A stretch of DNA of 64,000 bases from contig VYCF01000072.1 of the NCBI GenBank assembly GCA_009844085.1, positions 186,001 through 250,000 on the forward strand, given 5' to 3'. The notes beneath the pieces were generated by a model. The model did no database searches and had not been told where the DNA came from. It was given only the letters and a program-made list of their open reading frames with translations. The stretch is from Gammaproteobacteria bacterium (lineage in GTDB: Bacteria > Pseudomonadota > Gammaproteobacteria > Pseudomonadales > Pseudohongiellaceae). Both the position numbers and the translations under genes were made by a program. The first letter of the stretch is position 1. Each line of letters starts with the position of its first letter. This document shows, one piece after another, positions 12,224 to 59,965 of this stretch.

Positions 12224-12811
12224 GTGAATGCAAAACTGACGCGCAGACGTTTTATCAAGGGGGTGATCTTCTCCGGCGCGGCCGCGACGACCGGCGCCGC
12301 GGGAGTCTACCTCGCCCAGGCGCAGTCCGGGCTGTCCGCCGCGGAGCGTCTGATCACCCTGAACGTCAACGGCCGCGACCGGCCGGTAGACGTTCTGCCC
12401 CAGGAGACCCTGGCCCATACATTGCGTTACCGGCTCGATCTGACCGGCACCAAGATCGGCTGCAATCGAGGCGAATGCGGCGCCTGCACCGTGCTCATCG
12501 ACGGTGTGCCGAATTACTCGTGCTCGGTGCTGACGCATAACGTGAAGAACCGCACGGTGACTTCGATCGAGGGCCTCAAGGCCGCCGACGGCACGCTGCA
12601 TCCGGTGCAACAGGCCTTCATCGACGAAATCTCGCCGCAATGCGGTTTTTGCACGCCGGGACAGATCATGTCCGCGGTGGCGCTGCTGAATGACAACCCG
12701 GCGCCCGACCGGCAGCAGGTGCGAATGGCCCTTTCGGGCAACCTGTGCCGTTGCGGCGCATACGAACATTACATAAACGGCGTCTTGCGCGCCTCGGGGC
12801 AACTGGCATGA
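12224..12811 (+). CDS. Tat-exported [2Fe-2S] subunit of a xanthine dehydrogenase-family oxidoreductase
   Basis: The 195-residue small subunit of a molybdenum hydroxylase carries two [2Fe-2S] clusters that pass electrons from the Mo site. A Tat signal (TRRRFIKGVIF) begins at residue 6. The ferredoxin-type cluster uses C80, C85, C88 and C100; the C-terminal cluster uses C140, C143, C175 and C177 (QCGFCTPGQ and CRCG). The GTG at 12224 was chosen because GGAG lies 8 bases before it and it places the twin arginines near the N-terminus. The stop overlaps the next start (ATGA). The holoenzyme is probably assembled in the cytoplasm and exported by this one signal, as for PaoABC-type enzymes. Confidence 0.92.
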   Translation: MNAKLTRRRFIKGVIFSGAAATTGAAGVYLAQAQSGLSAAERLITLNVNGRDRPVDVLPQETLAHTLRYRLDLTGTKIGCNRGECGACTVLIDGVPNYSCSVLTHNVKNRTVTSIEGLKAADGTLHPVQQAFIDEISPQCGFCTPGQIMSAVALLNDNPAPDRQQVRMALSGNLCRCGAYEHYINGVLRASGQLA

Positions 12812-15243
12812 CTACGCATATAGGATTCGATTTCGTTCCGCCGGACGTTCCTGGCAAGGTCACCGGCGAGATCAAGTACGCTGAAGACTATCGCCGCGAA
12901 GGCATGGTCTTCGCGCGGCTGCTGACCAGTCCCCTGCCCGCGGGCAGGGTCGTCGGCATCGACGCCACCGAAGCGCTGCGCATGGACGGAGTGGTCGGCA
13001 TCTTCACCGCCGCCGACCTGCCGCCGGTGGCGCCCCCGGCCAATCCGGCGCTCGCAGCCGACTACATCACTTACGTCGGCCAGCCGATCCTCGCCGTAGC
13101 GGCGACTACCGAAGAGATCGCGGAAACCGCCATTGAGCGAATCCGGGTGGAGTACGAACGCCGCCCCTTCGTCGTGGACCCGCTTAAAAGCCTTGCTCCG
13201 GGCGGCGCTACCGCCTACCCGGAAGGCAATGCCCTGGTTCCCGTCCAGGAAGCGGGACCGGACGGCACGACCATCAATACCGCCCGGGTCATGGACGTCA
13301 AGTGGCCCCAGGAAGCCATCGACGCCATGCGCGCCGGAAGCGAACCAGTCGGCGCCGAGTTCACGAGGGAATGGGAATTCGGCGATCTTGAAGCGGGCTT
13401 CGCCGAGGCGGCCGCCATCGTCGAGGAGCCCTTCGTCACCATCGGCTACCCGCACCACTCGCTGGAATCCCGGACCTGCATGGCTTACTGGGAAAACGGC
13501 AGGTGCTACTTCCACGGTTCCTCCCAGAGCCAAAGCGCCAACAACGCCGGACTGGCGCGCATGCTCAACATCGATCTCGCCGACCTGGTCTTCATCAATG
13601 AGGCCACCGGCGGCGGCTTCGGCTCCAAGATCGGTCCCTATCCCTACATGGCGATTACCGGCCAGTTCTCGCGTCAATTGAACCGGCCGGTGCAGTTGCG
13701 AATCACCCGGGAACAGGAGTTCTACATCGGCTCGGCCCGTTCCGGCATGCAAGGCTGGATCAAGGTGGGCGTCAAGGAGGACGGCAAGGTGTCCGCGGTG
13801 GATCTCGTCATCGTCAATGACGGCGGCATGACCGGCGGCGGCAGCGGCAATTCGTCGGCGCAGCACGTCACCGTTGCCTACCAGCCCGAGGCGATGCGAT
13901 TCCGCCACATCTCGGTCTACACCAACACCACGCCGCGGGGCGCCCAGCGCGGTCCCGGCCAGAACGAAATGTCGGCCATTCTCGGTCCGGTCACCGACAA
14001 GGCGGCGGCTGCCGCCGGCATTGACCGGGTGGAGTTCCGCAAGGTCAACGCCCTCAACAGCGATGGCTTCCAGGGCGGCAGCCAGGGGCCCGTGACCAGC
14101 GCCTTCGTGCGTGAAGCCATCGACCAGGGCGAGCGGATGTTCGGCTGGCGCGAAAGGCTTGAGCAACCCAGGCGTAACGGCAGCAAGGTGCGCGGCCTCG
14201 GAGTCGGCATCGGCTATCACGGCGCCGGCGGCCGCGGCTACGACGGCCTGTTGCGAATGGACACCGACGGCATGCTGCACATCCATTGCGGCGTGGGCAA
14301 TCTCGGCACGTATTCCTATGCGGCGACCTGCCGCGCCGCGGCCGAAGTGATGCAGATTCCCTGGGAGCGCTGCCAGATTCATCGCGGCCGCAGCGACCGG
14401 CATCTGCCGCACAGTTCGGGCCAGGGCGGCTCCAATACGGTGTTCACTCATAGCCGTGCGAACTGGGTTGCCGGTCAGGACATGATCGCCAAGATGAAGG
14501 AAATCGCCGCCACGGACCTCGGCGGCAGCGCGGACGATTACGAGATCGGAGGCGAGCGCGTGTTCGCAAGCGCCGACCCCGATACCGGACTCAGCTACGC
14601 GCAATGCGCCCAGCGCGCGATGGAACTCGGCGGAGCCTTCAGCGGGGAGGAATATCCCGACGACATCAATCCGCTGACCCAACTCGCGGTGCAGGGACTT
14701 GCCGGAAGCGGCCTGATCGGCGTCGCCAGGGACAACATTCCGGGCGTCGGACAGCCGCCGGGAGTCGTCGTCGGCTTCATCGAGATCGAACTCGATACCG
14801 ACACCGGCAAGTACGATATTCTCGACTACGCCGCGGTCGCCGATTGCGGCACCGTGGTGCATCCGAAGAACTTCGACAACGCCATGCGCGGCGGCGCGGT
14901 CTGGGGCGTCGGGCTGGCCGCTCTCGAGCGCCATGTATACGATCCGCAGAACGGACTGCCCGCCAACGTCGGCCTGTATCAGAGCAAGCCGCCGACCATT
15001 CTCGACGTGCCGGTGGACACCCAGGCAGCCGCGGTGAACATTCCGGACCCGCAGAACCCGGCCGGCGGCCGCGGTATCGGCGAGCCGACCCAGGGCGCCG
15101 CCTGCGCCGCGTTGGCTTCCGCCATAACCGATGCCCTCGATGGACATTTGTTCAATTCCGCGCCGATCACGACGGACATGATCGTCAATCATCTGGCGGG
15201 GAATTCCTACAGCACCCAATCCCTGAAAACCAACACATTCTGA
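12808..15243 (+). CDS. Molybdopterin-binding large subunit, xanthine dehydrogenase family
   Basis: The 811-residue catalytic subunit starts with the family motif FVPPDVPGKVTGEIKYAED. An aldehyde oxidase/xanthine dehydrogenase a/b-hammerhead domain spans ~15-130, and Mo-cofactor-binding domains fill the rest. GGGFGSK binds the cofactor, and the catalytic Glu equivalent is E759 in GIGEPTQG. It has no export signal of its own and depends on the small subunit. It is clearly paralogous to the large subunit at 49693-52131. The substrate may be an aldehyde or N-heterocycle; the sequence does not decide. Confidence 0.92.
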   Translation: MTTHIGFDFVPPDVPGKVTGEIKYAEDYRREGMVFARLLTSPLPAGRVVGIDATEALRMDGVVGIFTAADLPPVAPPANPALAADYITYVGQPILAVAATTEEIAETAIERIRVEYERRPFVVDPLKSLAPGGATAYPEGNALVPVQEAGPDGTTINTARVMDVKWPQEAIDAMRAGSEPVGAEFTREWEFGDLEAGFAEAAAIVEEPFVTIGYPHHSLESRTCMAYWENGRCYFHGSSQSQSANNAGLARMLNIDLADLVFINEATGGGFGSKIGPYPYMAITGQFSRQLNRPVQLRITREQEFYIGSARSGMQGWIKVGVKEDGKVSAVDLVIVNDGGMTGGGSGNSSAQHVTVAYQPEAMRFRHISVYTNTTPRGAQRGPGQNEMSAILGPVTDKAAAAAGIDRVEFRKVNALNSDGFQGGSQGPVTSAFVREAIDQGERMFGWRERLEQPRRNGSKVRGLGVGIGYHGAGGRGYDGLLRMDTDGMLHIHCGVGNLGTYSYAATCRAAAEVMQIPWERCQIHRGRSDRHLPHSSGQGGSNTVFTHSRANWVAGQDMIAKMKEIAATDLGGSADDYEIGGERVFASADPDTGLSYAQCAQRAMELGGAFSGEEYPDDINPLTQLAVQGLAGSGLIGVARDNIPGVGQPPGVVVGFIEIELDTDTGKYDILDYAAVADCGTVVHPKNFDNAMRGGAVWGVGLAALERHVYDPQNGLPANVGLYQSKPPTILDVPVDTQAAAVNIPDPQNPAGGRGIGEPTQGAACAALASAITDALDGHLFNSAPITTDMIVNHLAGNSYSTQSLKTNTF

Positions 15244-49111: not shown

Positions 49112-49696
49112 GTGGATATCCGGCTTTCCCGAAGACGATTCATCAAGGGAGTCATTTTCTCGAGCGCCGCGGCGGCCTCGGGCGCCTATATCGCTGGCGC
49201 CCAGCAATTGCGCCCCGGCGCGGCCATGGATCGGCTGCTGACCCTGAACATCAACGGCAGGCCGCGTCCGGTGGAGGTGGGGCCGTCCGAGACCCTGGCG
49301 TTCACCTTGCGCACCAAGCTCGGACTGACCGGAACCAAGGTCGCCTGCAATCGCGGCGAATGCGGCGCCTGTACGGTCCTGCTTGACGACGTCGCCTACT
49401 ATAGCTGCTCACTGCTGACTCACACCGTCAAGCAACGCGCCATCACCACGGTGGAAGGACTGCGCCTGCCCGACGGCAGTCTCAGCGCGGTGCAACGGGG
49501 ATTCATCGAGGAACTCGCGCCCCAGTGCGGCTTCTGCACGCCGGGGCAAGTGATGTCGGCGGAGGGCCTGTTGCGGGCCAATCCCTCGCCTGACCGGGAG
49601 CAGGCAAGACAGGCGCTGGCCGGTAATCTGTGCCGCTGCGGCGCGTACGACCATTATCTGAACGGCGTCATGCGCGCCGCGGAGTTGCTGTCATGA
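49112..49696 (+). CDS. Tat-exported [2Fe-2S] subunit of second molybdenum hydroxylase
   Basis: A 194-residue paralogue of the protein at 12224-12811. The Tat signal RRRFIKGVIFS is nearly identical to the first copy. Cluster ligands are C79, C84, C87 and C99, then C139, C142, C174 and C176. GGAGG 9 bases before the GTG at 49112 settles the start and keeps the twin arginines at residues 7-9. The stop overlaps the large-subunit start (ATGA). In contrast to the first locus, no FAD subunit gene follows. Confidence 0.92.
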   Translation: MDIRLSRRRFIKGVIFSSAAAASGAYIAGAQQLRPGAAMDRLLTLNINGRPRPVEVGPSETLAFTLRTKLGLTGTKVACNRGECGACTVLLDDVAYYSCSLLTHTVKQRAITTVEGLRLPDGSLSAVQRGFIEELAPQCGFCTPGQVMSAEGLLRANPSPDREQARQALAGNLCRCGAYDHYLNGVMRAAELLS

Positions 49697-52131
49697 CTTT
49701 CAAGCATATTGGCCAGGATTTCACTCCTCCCGATGTCGAAGGCAAGGTGACCGGCGCCGCAAGATACGTGGAAGACTTTCAGCCCGAAGGCCTGGTTTAC
49801 GCCAGGCTCTACACCAGCCCCATGCCAAGCGGCCGGGTGGTCAATATCGACGCCGGCGAGGCCTTGCGCATGGATGGCGTGCTCGGCGTCATTACCGCCG
49901 CCGACCTGCCGCCTTCCAATGCGCCGGACAACCCGATGCTGGCTTCCGAAGACGTGACCTACATCGGTCAGCCGATCCTGGCCGTAGCCGCGACAACCGA
50001 CGCCATCGCGGAAGAGGCCCTGGGCAGGATCCGGGTGGATTTCGAGCGCCGCCCCTTCGTCACCGACCCGCTGGAATCACTCGCCGAAGGTGGCCCGGAC
50101 GCCTACCCGGACGGCAACGTGTTGCGGCAGGCGGCGCCGCTGGCGGATGAAAATGCAACCATCCGCGGCGGTATTTCCCGCATCAAGTGGCCCGTGGCCG
50201 AAGTGGAGAAATTCCGCCGCGGCGTGGAGCCCGACGGCGTGGAGTTCGCCGACGGCTGGACCTATGGAGAAATCGACGCCGGATTCGCCGAAAGCGAGGT
50301 CATCGTCGAGGAATCCTTCGTCACCGCCGGCACGCCGCACCACTGTCTCGAACCGCGCAGCAGCATGGCGTACTGGGAAAACGGCAAATGCTATTTCCAT
50401 GGCAGCCTGCAAAGCCAGAGCGCGGTCAACGAAGGCCTGGCGGAAATGCTCGGCATCGAACCGGAAAACCTCTGCGTCATCGCCGAGAACGCCGGCGGCG
50501 GCTTCGGCTCCAAGGCCCGGGCTTATCCCACGATGGGCGTTTGCGGCCATTTCGCCCGTATGCTCAACCGCCCGGTTCAATTGCGCATTACCCGCGAGGA
50601 AGAGTTCTATGTCGGCGTCGGCCGGCCGGGCATGCAAGGCTGGGTCAAGGCCGGATTGCGCGCCGACGGCACTGTCGCCGCCATGGACGTGATCATCATC
50701 AGCGATGGAGGTCCGACCGGCCGCAACAGCGCTTCGGCCTCGGCCCAGCATCTGTCGGTGGTATACACCCCTACCGCCATGCGCCTGCGCAATATTCCCG
50801 TTTTCACCAATACCGCGCCGCGAGGCGCGCAACGCGGTCCCGGGCAGAATGAGATGTCGGCGGCGATCGCACCGATCATGGACAAGGCTGCGCGCGACCT
50901 GGGCATTGACCGTGTCGCCATGCGAAGAATCAATGCGCCCCATAGCGAATCGCCGGTATACGAAAATCGGGGGCCGGTAACGAGCGCCTTCCTTGGCGAG
51001 GCGCTGGATATGGCCGCCGAAATGTTCGACTGGGAAGGCCGCCAATCCCGCTCGGGGCAGCGCAACGGCAGCAAGGTGCGCGGCGTCGGCGTCGGGCTCG
51101 GCTATCATTCCGCGGGCAGCAACGGCTACGATGGCCTGGTCCGGATTGCCCCCGATGGCAGAGTCTACCTGCATAGCGGCGTGGGCAATCTGGGCACCTA
51201 CTCCTACGCGGCCACAACGCGCGCCGCGGCGGAAGTGCTCCAGGTTCCCTGGGAGAATTGCGAGGTCGTGTGCGGGAATACCGACCTGCATTTGCCGAAC
51301 AGCTCGGTCCAGGGCGGCAGCAACACGATATTCACCCATACCCGGGCCAACTGGGTCGCGGCGGAAGACGCGGTAACCAAGTTGAAGGAAATCGCCGCCA
51401 TGCAATTCGGCGGAGAAGTCGCGGATTACGAAATCGACGGCGCGAGAGTGTTTCGGGCGGACAATTCCGACCAGGGTTTGACCTACGGCGACGCAGCCGC
51501 GCTGGCCATCGAAACAGGCGGGAAATACAGCGGCGAAGTATTTCCGGAAGACATTCATCCGATCACCCGGCGCGCCGTACAGGGACTTGCCGGCAGCGGT
51601 CTGATCGGCGTCGCCCGGGACAATTTGCCCAAACGGGGCATCGCGCCGGGACTATGCGTCGGCATGGTCGAGATCGACGTGGACCTGGAAACCGGCAAGA
51701 TCGATCTGCTTGATTTCGCCGCGGTTGCCGATTGCGGCACGATCGTGCATCCGAAGGGATTGTCGCAGCAGATCAACGGCGGCGCCGTCTGGGGATTCGG
51801 CATGGCCGCCAGCGAACGCCATGTCTACGATCCGCAAAACGCGCTGCCGGCCGGAGTCGGCTTCTACCAGGCCAAGCTGCCGACGATCCTCGATGTGCCC
51901 GCGGTAATGTACAACGCCGCGGTGGACATCCCCGATCCGTACAATCCGGCGGGCGCCAGGGGCGTCGGCGAACCCTCCCAGGGCTGTGCGGTGGCCGCGG
52001 TCGCCAGCGCGATCTCCGACGCGCTTGGCGGGCACCTGTTCAATCGCGTGCCGGTCACTCCCGACATGATCGTCAATCACGCAAACGGCAGGGAGCAGGA
52101 AGCGCGTCAACTGGCGCTCAACACGTTCTGA
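49693..52131 (+). CDS. Molybdopterin-binding large subunit of second molybdenum hydroxylase
   Basis: An 812-residue catalytic subunit, paralogous over its full length to the one at 12808-15243. It has FTPPDVEGKVTGAARYVED at the N-terminus, GGGFGSKA at the cofactor, the long PRGAQRGPGQNEMSA stretch, and the catalytic Glu equivalent E760 in GVGEPSQG. It lacks its own export signal. With only two subunits it resembles isoquinoline oxidoreductase (IorAB)-type enzymes, which pass electrons to a cytochrome rather than FAD. It may alternatively borrow the FAD subunit encoded at 15253. Substrate unknown. Confidence 0.92.
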   Translation: MTFKHIGQDFTPPDVEGKVTGAARYVEDFQPEGLVYARLYTSPMPSGRVVNIDAGEALRMDGVLGVITAADLPPSNAPDNPMLASEDVTYIGQPILAVAATTDAIAEEALGRIRVDFERRPFVTDPLESLAEGGPDAYPDGNVLRQAAPLADENATIRGGISRIKWPVAEVEKFRRGVEPDGVEFADGWTYGEIDAGFAESEVIVEESFVTAGTPHHCLEPRSSMAYWENGKCYFHGSLQSQSAVNEGLAEMLGIEPENLCVIAENAGGGFGSKARAYPTMGVCGHFARMLNRPVQLRITREEEFYVGVGRPGMQGWVKAGLRADGTVAAMDVIIISDGGPTGRNSASASAQHLSVVYTPTAMRLRNIPVFTNTAPRGAQRGPGQNEMSAAIAPIMDKAARDLGIDRVAMRRINAPHSESPVYENRGPVTSAFLGEALDMAAEMFDWEGRQSRSGQRNGSKVRGVGVGLGYHSAGSNGYDGLVRIAPDGRVYLHSGVGNLGTYSYAATTRAAAEVLQVPWENCEVVCGNTDLHLPNSSVQGGSNTIFTHTRANWVAAEDAVTKLKEIAAMQFGGEVADYEIDGARVFRADNSDQGLTYGDAAALAIETGGKYSGEVFPEDIHPITRRAVQGLAGSGLIGVARDNLPKRGIAPGLCVGMVEIDVDLETGKIDLLDFAAVADCGTIVHPKGLSQQINGGAVWGFGMAASERHVYDPQNALPAGVGFYQAKLPTILDVPAVMYNAAVDIPDPYNPAGARGVGEPSQGCAVAAVASAISDALGGHLFNRVPVTPDMIVNHANGREQEARQLALNTF

Positions 52132-53897: not shown

Positions 53898-55316
53898 TTG
53901 ACCACACGTTACGCGCTGGTAGTCAAGAAGGACTGCCCCACCTGCGCCCTGATCGAGCCGCTCATTCCGCTGCTTGCGGAACAGGTCGACGGCGGCCTGT
54001 CGGTTTACGTCCAGGACGATCCGGCTTTTCCGGGCAACTTCGACGCGATCGATGACAGCGAGCTGGAATTTTCCTGGCGCAACGAGATCGAGATTGTCCC
54101 GACCCTGCTGCGCGGCGATGGCGCCAATTGTGAACGCGTCGTCGGCTGGGACCGCGCGGAATGGCGCAAATTTTCCGGCATCGGAGACCTCGGCGAAGAC
54201 CTGGCGCCACACCGGCCCGGCTGCGGTTCGCGCACACTCGAGCCCGGTATGCCGGAGAAGCTGGCAGCCCGGCACATGGGCTTCGGCGCACGCAAGGTCG
54301 AACTCGCGGCAGCCGAAGACGATATGGAAACCTGCTTCGAACGCGGCTGGACCGACGGTCTTCCCGTCGTGCCGCCCACTCCGGAACGCGTCCTGCGCAT
54401 GCTCGGCGGCACGGATCGCGAAGCCGGCGAAATCATCGGCGAAGTGCCGCCGGACCGGGTACCCTGCACGATCGAGAAACTCGCGATCAACGCGGTCATG
54501 GCAGGTTGCAAGCCGGAGTATTTTCCGCTCGTCATCGCTGCCGTGAAGGCCGCTCTCGACGACCGTTTCTGCATGCATGGACTGCTATGCACCACCTATT
54601 TTTCATCGCCCGTGGTCATCGTCAACGGGCCCGCGGCGACTCAATCCAACATGAATTCCGGCGTCAACGCCCTCGGCCAGGGCAATCGCGCCAACGCCAC
54701 CATCGGCCGTGCGCTGCAATTGATCGTCCGCAATGTCGGCGGCGGCCTTCCCGGCGGTATCGACCGCGCGGCGATGGGCAATCCCGGCAAGTACACTTAT
54801 TGTTTCGCCGAAGACGAATCCGACCCGGACTGGCCGAGCCTGGCCATGGACAGGGGCTTCGAACGGGAAGACTCGGTCGTCACCCTGTTCGCCGGCGAAG
54901 GCTTGCAGGCGATCGTCGACCAGCAATCCCGCACGCCCGAATCGCTCGCCGGCAGCTTTGCCGCGAGTCTGCGCACGGTGGCGCATTACAAGCTGTTCGG
55001 CTTGGCGGACGCGATCCTGGTGATCAGCCCCGAACATCGCCGGGTGCTGCGCGAAGGCGGCTGGTCCAAGACCGATCTGCGCGAAGCGCTATACGACCGG
55101 CTGCGCGTCCCCGGGCAACAGATCCTGCGCGGCGCCGACGGCGTCGCCGAAGGCATGCCCGAGCGCTTGCGCAACAAACTCCTGCACAAGTTTCGCGACG
55201 ACGGCCTGCATATCGTCAGCCTCGGCGGCGGCGCGGGCATGTTTTCGGCCATAATCGGCGGCTGGATAGCCGCCGGCGAAAGGGGAAGCCAACCGGTCTC
55301 CCAAAGAATAGAATGA
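53898..55316 (+). CDS. Thioredoxin-like domain fused to a large domain of unknown function, partner of the UGSC selenoprotein
   Basis: A 472-residue cytosolic protein. Residues 1-85 form a thioredoxin/glutaredoxin-like domain with CPTC (C13, C16). The remaining ~350 residues are a separate domain containing ERGWTDGLPVVPPTPERV, a Cys-containing stretch MAGCKPEYFPLVI, GPAATQSNMNSGVNALGQGNRANATIGRA and NPGKYTYCFAED. I recognise this domain only by its company with UGSC-family genes. The TTG start at 53898 follows GGAGAGAG. The downstream gene, 26 bases away, encodes the selenoprotein. A role in giving or receiving electrons at its U-x-x-C site is inferred. Confidence 0.72.
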   Translation: MTTRYALVVKKDCPTCALIEPLIPLLAEQVDGGLSVYVQDDPAFPGNFDAIDDSELEFSWRNEIEIVPTLLRGDGANCERVVGWDRAEWRKFSGIGDLGEDLAPHRPGCGSRTLEPGMPEKLAARHMGFGARKVELAAAEDDMETCFERGWTDGLPVVPPTPERVLRMLGGTDREAGEIIGEVPPDRVPCTIEKLAINAVMAGCKPEYFPLVIAAVKAALDDRFCMHGLLCTTYFSSPVVIVNGPAATQSNMNSGVNALGQGNRANATIGRALQLIVRNVGGGLPGGIDRAAMGNPGKYTYCFAEDESDPDWPSLAMDRGFEREDSVVTLFAGEGLQAIVDQQSRTPESLAGSFAASLRTVAHYKLFGLADAILVISPEHRRVLREGGWSKTDLREALYDRLRVPGQQILRGADGVAEGMPERLRNKLLHKFRDDGLHIVSLGGGAGMFSAIIGGWIAAGERGSQPVSQRIE

Positions 55317-55342: not shown

Positions 55343-55864
55343 ATGACAAATGCGACATTGCTCGACCCCACGGCTGAATTGCAGTCGGCGGAGCGTCAGT
55401 TGACGCCGAGGCTGGCAAGTCTGTCGGGCGCCACGGTCGGCCTGCTCGATATTTCCAAGCCGCGGGGCAAGGAATTTCTCGACGAAGTAGAATCCCTGCT
55501 CGAAGAACAGGGAGCGCAGGTAAAACGCTATAGCAAGCCGACGTTTACCCGGGTCGCGCCGACCGCCCTGCTGCAGCAGATCGGCGCCGAATGCGACGCG
55601 GTAGTCGAAGCATTAGCCGACTGAGGCTCCTGCACGTCGTGCAGTTTGCATGACATGCTCGACCTCGAAAGCCGGGGCTTGCCGGCCGGATTCGTCGCCT
55701 CCTGCGAATTCGAAGACGCCGCGGCGGCCCAGGGCAAATCGCTCGGCATCGCGCCGAAAAGCGTATTCGTGCCGCATCCGATCCAGGATCGGACCGATGC
55801 GGAAATGGCCGATCTCGCCCGCGAGGCGATCGACAATATCAAGGCGCTGATCGCCGATTCGTAA
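55343..55864 (+). CDS. UGSC family selenoprotein (in-frame UGA read as selenocysteine)
   Basis: Read straight through, the frame from the ATG at 55343 encodes 173 residues with one TGA at 55622-55624 and a true TAA stop at 55862. The TGA is followed by codons for Gly-Ser-Cys, giving U94-G-S-C97-TSC. This is the defining motif of UGSC-family (seleno)proteins; Cys homologues have CGSCTSxxxHD. Both halves look conserved: [16 protein letters not shown] before, and [17 protein letters not shown], then VFVPHPI after. A good ribosome site (GGAGAGG) precedes the ATG, and a hairpin follows the UGA. The redox U-x-x-C site may work with the thioredoxin-like domain encoded upstream. Standard gene calling would give fragments 55343-55624 and 55646-55864. 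Confidence 0.87.
55630..55644 (+). promoter_or_regulatory. Candidate bacterial SECIS hairpin
   Basis: CTGCAC (55630-55635) and GTGCAG (55639-55644) form a 6-base-pair stem around the loop GTC, starting 5 bases after the UGA. A G at the start of a small apical loop fits bacterial SECIS rules. The loop lies only about 11 bases from the UGA, nearer than the spacing usually described, so the element may be atypical. Confidence 0.6.
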
Positions 55865-55917: not shown

Positions 55918-57102
55918 ATGACAACCGAGGCAGTAATCGTATCCACCGCCAGAACCCCCATCGGCAAGGCCTACCGGGGCGCATTCAACGACACCGACGG
56001 ACCTTCCATGGCCGCCCACGCCATCGCGGCAGCGGTGGAACGGGCCGGAATCGAACCCGGCGAAGTGGATGACGTAATCATGGGCTGCGCCATGCAGCAG
56101 GGATCCACCGGACAGAATATCGGCCGCACAGCGGGAGTGGCCGCCGGCCTGCCTTCCTCCGTCGCGGGAATGAGCATTGACCGCCAATGCGCTTCCGGCA
56201 TGATGGCCATCGCCACCGCCGCGAAGCAGATCGTGCACGACGGCATGCCCGTCGTCGTCGGCGGCGGCGTCGAATCGATCAGCCTGGTGCAAAACGATCA
56301 TCGCAACGGATACCGGGCCCAGGATCCGAACGTGATCGCCCGTTCGCAACATGCCTACATGTCGATGCTGGAAACCGCCGAAGTCGTCTCCAAGCGTTAC
56401 AACGTCAGCCGCGAACAGCAGGACGAGTTCGCCCTGCAAAGCCAGCAGCGCACCGCCGCCGCCCAGCAGGCGGGCAGGTTCGACGACGAAATCGTGCCGT
56501 TGCCTTCCACGATGTTGTTCACCGACAAGGAAACCGGGCAGCAAAGCAAGCACGAAGTCACGCTGGAAAAGGACGAGGGCAACCGGCCCACGACGACAGG
56601 CGAAGGACTCGCCGGCCTGCGCACGGTCTTCGAAGGCGGCGTCATTACCGCCGGCAACGCCAGCCAGTTGTCCGACGGCGCCTCCGCCTCGGTCTTGATG
56701 GACGCGAAAGTCGCCGAACGCAAGGGCCTTGAACCGCTTGGCGCCTATCGAGGCATGGCCGCCGCCGGACTCGATCCCGATGAAATGGGCATCGGGCCGA
56801 TCTACGCCGTGCCGAAATTGCTCGAGCGTTTCAACCTGACGATGGACGACATCGACCTGTGGGAACTGAATGAGGCTTTCGCCGTGCAGGTCGTCTATTG
56901 CCGCGACCACCTCGGCATTCCCAATGAGAAACTCAACGTCAACGGCGGCGCCATTTCCGTCGGCCACCCCTATGGCATGAGCGGCGCCCGCCTGGTCGGC
57001 CACGCCCTGCTCGAAGGCAAGCGCCGCGGCGCCCGCTACGTCGTCTGCACCATGTGCGTCGGCGGCGGCATGGGGGCCGCGGGGCTATTCGAGGTGTACT
57101 AG
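55918..57102 (+). CDS. Acetyl-CoA acetyltransferase (thiolase)
   Basis: A 394-residue classical thiolase. The nucleophile is C91 in [11 protein letters not shown]. The remaining catalytic residues are H350 in [11 protein letters not shown] and C380 in [10 protein letters not shown]. The opening [19 protein letters not shown] and NEAFAVQ are typical. It may be degradative (beta-oxidation) or biosynthetic (acetoacetyl-CoA); no acyl-CoA dehydrogenase or hydratase gene is beside it. It lies 53 bases after the selenoprotein gene on the same strand. Confidence 0.95.
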
Positions 57103-58777: not shown

Positions 58778-59965
58778 CTACCAGTCCGAGGATTCTTCGT
58801 CATGCGTCGCGGTGGGAAGCGCGTAGGAAAGCTCAGTCCGGCCGAGATCGACGAAATCCATCAACTGGTTGGTTCGATTAAGGTCCCTGTTCTTGCGAAT
58901 TGCGGGAATCACTCCGAAGACGGCGCGGGCCAGTCGGTTCCTGAAGGCGAAGCCCTGCACGGCCAGCCCGTCGCCTTTGCCCGGATATCTGAGGGCGTCC
59001 GCCAGCGAACCACCGATCAGGCCCCTTGAAATCCGATAGGCCAGCGCCGCGATCTTGCGCCGCTCCGCGGATTCGGTAACGCCGATCACAATCGGAGCGC
59101 TGTTGATGATGCTGTTGGCCATGATGATGGCGTCGTCGCCCGGAGGCGGCTCGCACAGCTTTGCGACATCAAAGATGTTCAAGGCGCCGGCCTCGTCGCG
59201 AAAGGTCACTTCTTGCGGGATTCCCAGGAGGATTGCCGAATAGCGCCACACATGCACGTAGGCTTCGCGCTCTTCGCGGGAAAAATCGCCGCCGAGCCGC
59301 GCCACGTGGCGCATGAGGCGGCCCGAAAACGCGGCTGCGGCCAGAGAGAGGGTCGCGGCGCTGACCGGTAAGCCGTAGCGCTCCTCTTCCCATTCCTCCG
59401 ATTGCCCGATCAACAGCCTCGACCGGGCGTGAACCAGCCGGATGCGCAGGGAAAGCCGCCAGCCGTCGCTGAGCGGGAGGACGCCGCCGGGCAGGTAACT
59501 CTCAAGCAGGTGCAAGCCGTTCTGCTTGAGGCGGCGAACACCCATCGACATGACCCGGCCCCTGATGCGGAACGACGTGCTGATCAGCGTCGCGAAGCCT
59601 TCGACGATGCTGCCCGCGACCAGGCCCGCCAGGACGACGTCGGAATTACGCAGGAACGCCCTCGAAGAGATCCGCGTCGCCTCTTCGTCGAACCAGGCCG
59701 GAACTTCCATGGATTCTTCCATGAACCGCCCGAGCGACGCGGGGGCCTCGGGCGGCAGCTTCGCGGGGTTCGCCATGGCCCTGGTGAGAATTTCGTGAAC
59801 TCGATCCGCGGGAAACTCGGCGAGATCCGCCGCCGTCTCGTCCCCGATGGGATCTCCGATCGTCGTGTGACGGACATAGGCCTCGGCGAATTCGGCGTCC
59901 CGGGCATGGGCCCGGTCGTAGCCTGCCAGGTATTCTTCAGGAATTTTGATGGTCCCTGCTTTCAT
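58778..59965 (-). CDS. MpaB-family oxygenase (DUF2236)
   Basis: A 395-residue protein of the MpaB/latex-clearing-protein family, which holds heme-dependent oxygenases cleaving polyprenyl double bonds. Family marks are LVHARSRLL, a VHVWRYSAILLGIP stretch with a candidate heme His, and helical regions rich in Arg. There is no signal peptide. Its start overlaps the RND pump stop by 4 bases (ATGA), so the two are co-translated. A shared hydrophobic substrate, for example an isoprenoid, is possible but is inference. Confidence 0.82.
   Translation of the reverse strand: MKAGTIKIPEEYLAGYDRAHARDAEFAEAYVRHTTIGDPIGDETAADLAEFPADRVHEILTRAMANPAKLPPEAPASLGRFMEESMEVPAWFDEEATRISSRAFLRNSDVVLAGLVAGSIVEGFATLISTSFRIRGRVMSMGVRRLKQNGLHLLESYLPGGVLPLSDGWRLSLRIRLVHARSRLLIGQSEEWEEERYGLPVSAATLSLAAAAFSGRLMRHVARLGGDFSREEREAYVHVWRYSAILLGIPQEVTFRDEAGALNIFDVAKLCEPPPGDDAIIMANSIINSAPIVIGVTESAERRKIAALAYRISRGLIGGSLADALRYPGKGDGLAVQGFAFRNRLARAVFGVIPAIRKNRDLNRTNQLMDFVDLGRTELSYALPTATHDEESSDW

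Follow-up and report, generated by a model that had tools for sequence, protein, structure and literature searches.

Does the in-frame TGA at 55622-55624 of the window (the whole stretch of DNA analysed, 64,000 nucleotides) end a gene or encode selenocysteine (Sec), and, if it encodes Sec, in which reaction might the product take part? The two features at the centre of this question are the following.

55343-55864, plus strand: UGSC family selenoprotein as judged from sequence, 173 aa, Sec94; matched over its whole length by NF041046 and PF24696, and a TGA-containing gene across the genus.
55622-55624, plus strand: UGA codon, probably read as Sec; TGA in 114 of 116 loci and TGC in 2, among loci with a readable site, some of which overlap.

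Under translation table 11 the region is divided into a 93-aa frame (55343-55624) and a TTG-started 72-aa frame (55646-55864). When the TGA is read as U, retranslation gives one frame open to the TAA at 55862-55864, exactly as the preliminary description had it, and a 173-aa product in which Sec is residue 94 and the first residue of U94-G-S-C97, the [U/C]-G-S-C motif required in the UGSC family. Alignment to the family with UGA as U had been proposed as a check, and the whole protein, with the TGA read through, scored above the curated cut-offs of both models, at 144.7 bits for NF041046 (cut-off 125, E 2e-42) and 143.1 bits for PF24696 (cut-off 25, E 1.2e-41). The halves before and after the TGA were also compared separately with NF041046 (E 5.6e-15 and 4.4e-14) and with PF24696, and each matched at the expected model positions. 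Since the two halves match the UGSC models independently and in the right places, the agreement is far beyond chance, and the view that both flanks belong to one conserved protein holds. Weak matches to 3HCDH_N and DUF116 as possible relatives of UGSC were dropped as inconsistent.

Compared with two close relatives, the coding part 3' of the TGA has a dN/dS of about 0.23 in each case, which indicates purifying selection. Homologues run on past the UGA, as a selenoprotein would require: the gene is present in 58 of the 61 genomes of the genus, where every near-full-length match contains exactly one in-frame TGA. Among named sequences, the closest come from metagenome assemblies placed in Pseudomonadales, including a chromosome assigned to Pseudohongiella (OX638341, L055) whose UGSC is 90% identical, so the window derives from a Pseudohongiella-like member of that order. 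With regard to automated calling, the standard code does produce two small ORFs, as had been expected, but the loss of the gene is not inevitable, because 'UGSC family (seleno)protein' is the name of an existing NCBI model. As a kind the gene was already known: the family was described in 2008 and has curated models, and the ocean survey of that year counts 255 forms with Sec and 21 with Cys of a 'UGSC-containing protein' and notes some reads in which it is fused to an unknown domain (PMC2398784).

Downstream of the UGA, a hairpin is found in the coding sequence.

55637-55643 (arm), 55644-55646 (loop, GTT) and 55647-55653 (arm), plus strand: putative SECIS hairpin with a 7-bp stem, compared in 93 distinct sequences.

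In its sequence, TCGTGCA-GTT-TGCATGA, the stem begins 12 nt after the UGA and the loop 19 nt after it. Pairs 1-6 of the 7 are formed in 98-100% of the 93 distinct sequences, and the seventh, beside the loop, in 84%, the remainder having T-T there and a 5-nt loop. Within the same set the stem shows compensatory changes (C-G to T-A and C-G to G-C) as well as one-sided ones (G-T to A-T and G-T to G-C); in the divergent protein L053 the pair change is accompanied by amino-acid changes. Codon choice is constrained as well, Ser codon 7 at the loop being AGT in 77 of 77 and Ser codon 5 in the 5' arm TCG in 86 of 91, although both codons serve only a minority of Ser residues in the rest of these genes, and the folding energy of the hairpin has a mean z of -1.9 (s.d.) relative to synonymous recodings. 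The loop begins with G in most sequences, and this G, together with the distance of the hairpin from the UGA, fits bacterial SECIS elements. No Rfam family matched the hairpin, even at E 10. The conserved pairing, the compensatory changes and the synonymous constraint identify it, at the level of sequence, as a SelB-type SECIS element.

The organism had been predicted to have selA, selB, selC and selD, and all four were located in the source genome (3.43 Mb, 97% complete, in which the window is C11:186001-250000).

C11:156112-157497: selA, on the same contig as the window, up to 30 kb before it.
C11:172113-174020: selB, on the same contig, before the window.
C11:182549-182640: tRNA-Sec (selC), at 66.7 bits against a gathering threshold of 47 and called by ARAGORN as well; 3.4 kb before the window.
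C56:14726-15622: selD (L045), on another contig than the window.

The tRNA-Sec was the sole match in an Rfam scan of the window and the preceding 18 kb. The selD gene is one long frame with a fused NADH-dehydrogenase-like domain, and Ndh-SelD fusions are described in the 2008 survey (PMC2398784). The locus and its genome have the characters of a bacterial SelB-dependent selenoprotein, namely an in-frame UGA with conserved flanks, a SECIS hairpin and selA/selB/selC/selD, and we strongly infer that SelB would insert Sec at the UGA under the guidance of the hairpin at 55637-55653. Among five other UGSC-carrying genomes of the phylum, the Sec/Cys state follows the presence of selA, which scores above the cut-off in the three with TGA and in neither of the two with TGC. 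Cys members, of which the preliminary description had also spoken, do exist, as in L049, where TGC takes the place of TGA and the genome has no selA match. Taken together, these sequence data make it nearly certain that 55343-55864 encodes a UGSC family selenoprotein.

The genomic context of UGSC is of more interest than the gene itself, and its immediate neighbours are these.

53898-55316, plus strand: partner, 472 aa, with a thioredoxin domain and a conserved large domain, directly upstream of UGSC.
55918-57102, plus strand: acetyl-CoA acetyltransferase (thiolase; PF00108/PF02803), directly downstream of UGSC.

Residues ~1-95 of the partner form a thioredoxin domain with the motif CPTC. Thioredoxin fold matches reach Z 8-9 over model residues 1-95, several members of the partner family give weak Pfam thioredoxin matches, and the Foldseek matches of the whole-partner model were confined to this domain. 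Residues ~130-472 make up a conserved domain in which many positions are invariant. Searches of Pfam and NCBIfam returned no family for the partner at E up to 10 and no GrdE/PrdA (pyruvoyl-type) family for its large domain, which is a conserved family without an entry in either collection.

A partner-profile search of one genome per species (84,980 species), with a profile blind to the Sec/Cys state of UGSC, gave at least 564 relatives. In the best 80 of these, which are the closest relatives only, UGSC lies directly downstream of the partner in 80 of 80 loci, and the codon at the Sec site is TGA in all 79 that are readable; as named in the sequence records, these 80 span Proteobacteria, Myxococcota, SAR324, Chloroflexi, Hydrogenedentota and others. 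The partner occurs in the same genus genomes as UGSC, and some distant pairs have the reverse gene order (L146). At L141 UGSC is a Cys form and the partner is still adjacent; the pairing thus persists where Sec has been lost. The thiolase follows the pair in 29 of the best 80 loci, in the genus and near relatives only, and is probably not a core member of the unit. Elsewhere in the window there are two large look-alike ORFs, 49630-52131, which Pfam places as a molybdopterin-binding subunit of the xanthine dehydrogenase type, and 12745-15243, similar to it by eye only; a protein of the MpaB/rubber-oxygenase type (PF09995) is encoded at 58781-59965 on the minus strand.

The genus has a second UGSC paralogue, ~32% identical and also with UGA, whose neighbour is usually a shorter partner without the thioredoxin domain; at one such locus (L038, genome G057) the second partner is ~10 kb away and not adjacent. 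The source genome also has a second UGSC gene, C71:703-1245 (L021), with one in-frame TGA and 31% identity. Its contig begins ~700 bases upstream of the gene, and a second partner gene for it was not found in this assembly.

In 11 of the best 80 partner loci (of at least 564 relatives), mainly from Burkholderiales, selA and/or selB stand directly after UGSC (L096, L097, L099, L103, L105, L108, L120, L121, L123, L126 and L132), and tRNA-Sec follows selB in two of them (L099 and L105). In these cassettes the selenoprotein travels together with its own decoding machinery.

The relation of UGSC to known selenoenzymes was seen in the profile matches of 64 UGSC members. TIGR01917 (glycine reductase selenoprotein B) was matched by 45 of them (best E 1.4e-4), the sarcosine GrdF model by 35 (best E 2.5e-5) and two further models of the same selenoprotein B family by 13-18; no other family recurs likewise. 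L148 is a genuine UGA-containing GrdB (E 4e-135) with the motif UGSCNRC, its genome also carries UGSC, and BLASTP between this GrdB and UGSC aligned UGSC on UGSC (E 8e-4). Profile comparison by hhalign became convincing only once UGA-containing GrdB-type proteins were used: a first comparison, against five Cys-type GRDB proteins, gave a weak 2.4%, whereas the UGA-containing profiles gave 86% (E 5e-6), with an alignment reaching the C-terminal HP motif. When the 7-residue UGSCxxC motif was masked on both sides, the score fell from 47.7 to 29.0 (P 0.0035) and the alignment stayed the same; 20 column-shuffled profiles scored at most 20.5, with a probability of at most 1%, and a reversed profile 15.1. 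As the masked score exceeds all controls, common ancestry is likely, although much of the signal lies in the motif, and UGSC and the Sec region of GrdB selenoprotein B are likely to be distantly related. That UGSC is itself a GrdB is ruled out, for it falls below the GrdB cut-offs (14.7 bits against 602.2 for TIGR01917), has no PF07355 match and is without the N-terminal part of GrdB. PDB sequence searches gave no relative for any of the three profiles, UGSC, partner or GRDB. UGSC-carrying genomes often hold additional PrdB/GrdB-like genes with one in-frame TGA (L149, L150, L151 and L153-L158), below the TIGR01918 cut-off, and Cys-type GRDB-like proteins of ~300 aa with NCPVCHQ or NCPICHQ (L134-L138) occur in Pseudomonadota-type genomes of the phylum of the window.

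The partner pairing, the selA/selB cassettes and the GrdB relation were found here; the accessible literature on the UGSC protein, of which coverage is incomplete, names none of the three. Reviews of 2022 and 2026 still list the protein without a function.

To what computation shows, namely the gene, its SECIS element, the Sec machinery, the partner pairing, the thioredoxin domain and the distant GrdB similarity, we add a proposal on function. UGSC and its partner would form a two-protein reductase driven by thioredoxin, in which UGSC would most likely be the small Sec subunit, and we hold this to be fairly probable; for the selenoprotein and the two-protein reductase taken as one reading, a single compromise figure would be about 0.7. 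A small substrate would be bound by the large domain of the partner and attacked by the selenolate of Sec94, the resulting intermediate on selenium would be resolved by Cys97 of UGSC to give a selenenylsulfide, and the thioredoxin domain of the partner (CPTC) would return the electrons. The homology of UGSC with GrdB around the Sec residue suggests the selenolate attack, and substrate binding is a guess, because the large domain has no recognised relative. From the analysis of the pair we infer a physical complex, a reductase activity and this electron path.

The role of such a reductase can be conceived differently. Sec enzymes often have detoxification roles and the pair is found in surface-water bacteria, so that it might reduce metals, metalloids or reactive electrophiles rather than take part in carbon-substrate metabolism; the recurrent neighbours of the pair, however, included no recognised metal or arsenic gene, and its kinship is to a substrate-cleaving selenoprotein B. 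We regard detoxification as unlikely, though still to be reckoned with.

The fold of UGSC bears on another explanation. In the predicted model (pLDDT 94.7) five strands alternate with helices and Sec stands just before the third helix; Foldseek found for it only common flavodoxin-like and Rossmann folds. The 2008 study suggests a thioredoxin-like fold (PMC2398784), and UGSC would accordingly be a general thioredoxin-type thiol oxidoreductase, the partner being a regulator or another redox protein. The UxxC motif is in agreement with that explanation, but the strand order of the confident model is flavodoxin-like and the thioredoxin order (beta-alpha-beta-alpha-beta-beta-alpha) is absent from it, no UGSC member matched any thioredoxin family, and the thioredoxin domain is found in the partner instead. 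The predicted fold, flavodoxin-like and not thioredoxin-like, disagrees with the earlier proposal, and a thiol oxidoreductase appears improbable. That the UGA is a true stop, a pseudogene or a sequencing error having split a Cys-type gene, would explain the frame broken under the standard code but can practically be dismissed in view of the TGA at the same codon in nearly all loci from several phyla, the conserved hairpin and purifying selection downstream of it and the full Sec machinery of the genome.

In aquatic bacteria the UGSC proteins rank with the most abundant selenoproteins, yet they have been without a function since 2008. The near-obligate partner, the link to glycine-reductase-type enzymes and the existence of carriers among named strains (Rubrivivax, Noviherbaspirillum and Reyranella) make this function testable.

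In comparison with known systems, the product of 55343-55864 agrees with the UGSC family (NF041046/PF24696) over its whole length, with Sec at UxxC and rare Cys homologues, and no difference separates it from that family. The top structural match of the model (Z 12.6 over 129 residues, 2.7 A, 12% identity; next Z 10.4) is to what we take to be an iron-sulphur protein of methanogens; this is a match of a common fold only, which shows no function for UGSC. With GrdB, GrdF and GrdH (TIGR01917, NF040794, NF040795 and PF07355) UGSC shares a UGSCxxC-like motif, Sec on Sec, and a similar stretch after it with a conserved 'HP' region, but GrdB has ~430 aa against 173 aa, including an N-terminal part that UGSC lacks, and no GrdA-like or pyruvoyl-type subunit of the Grd systems was recognised next to UGSC. 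From D-proline reductase PrdB and the marine PrdB-like selenoproteins UGSC differs in that the sequence similarity is distant only and a PrdA-type partner was not seen, whereas the UxxC Sec site and the combination of a small Sec subunit with a larger partner are alike. According to PMC10298544, glycine reductase takes its electrons from thioredoxin, and a selenium-carbon bond is believed to be made and broken at its Sec; the partner of UGSC has a thioredoxin domain of its own. Whether the pair represents a new class of two-protein selenoenzyme appears to us evenly balanced: it would be a miniature relative of the glycine/proline-type reductases, with the thioredoxin built into the partner, distributed over several phyla and in mainly Burkholderiales joined in a cassette with the Sec machinery.
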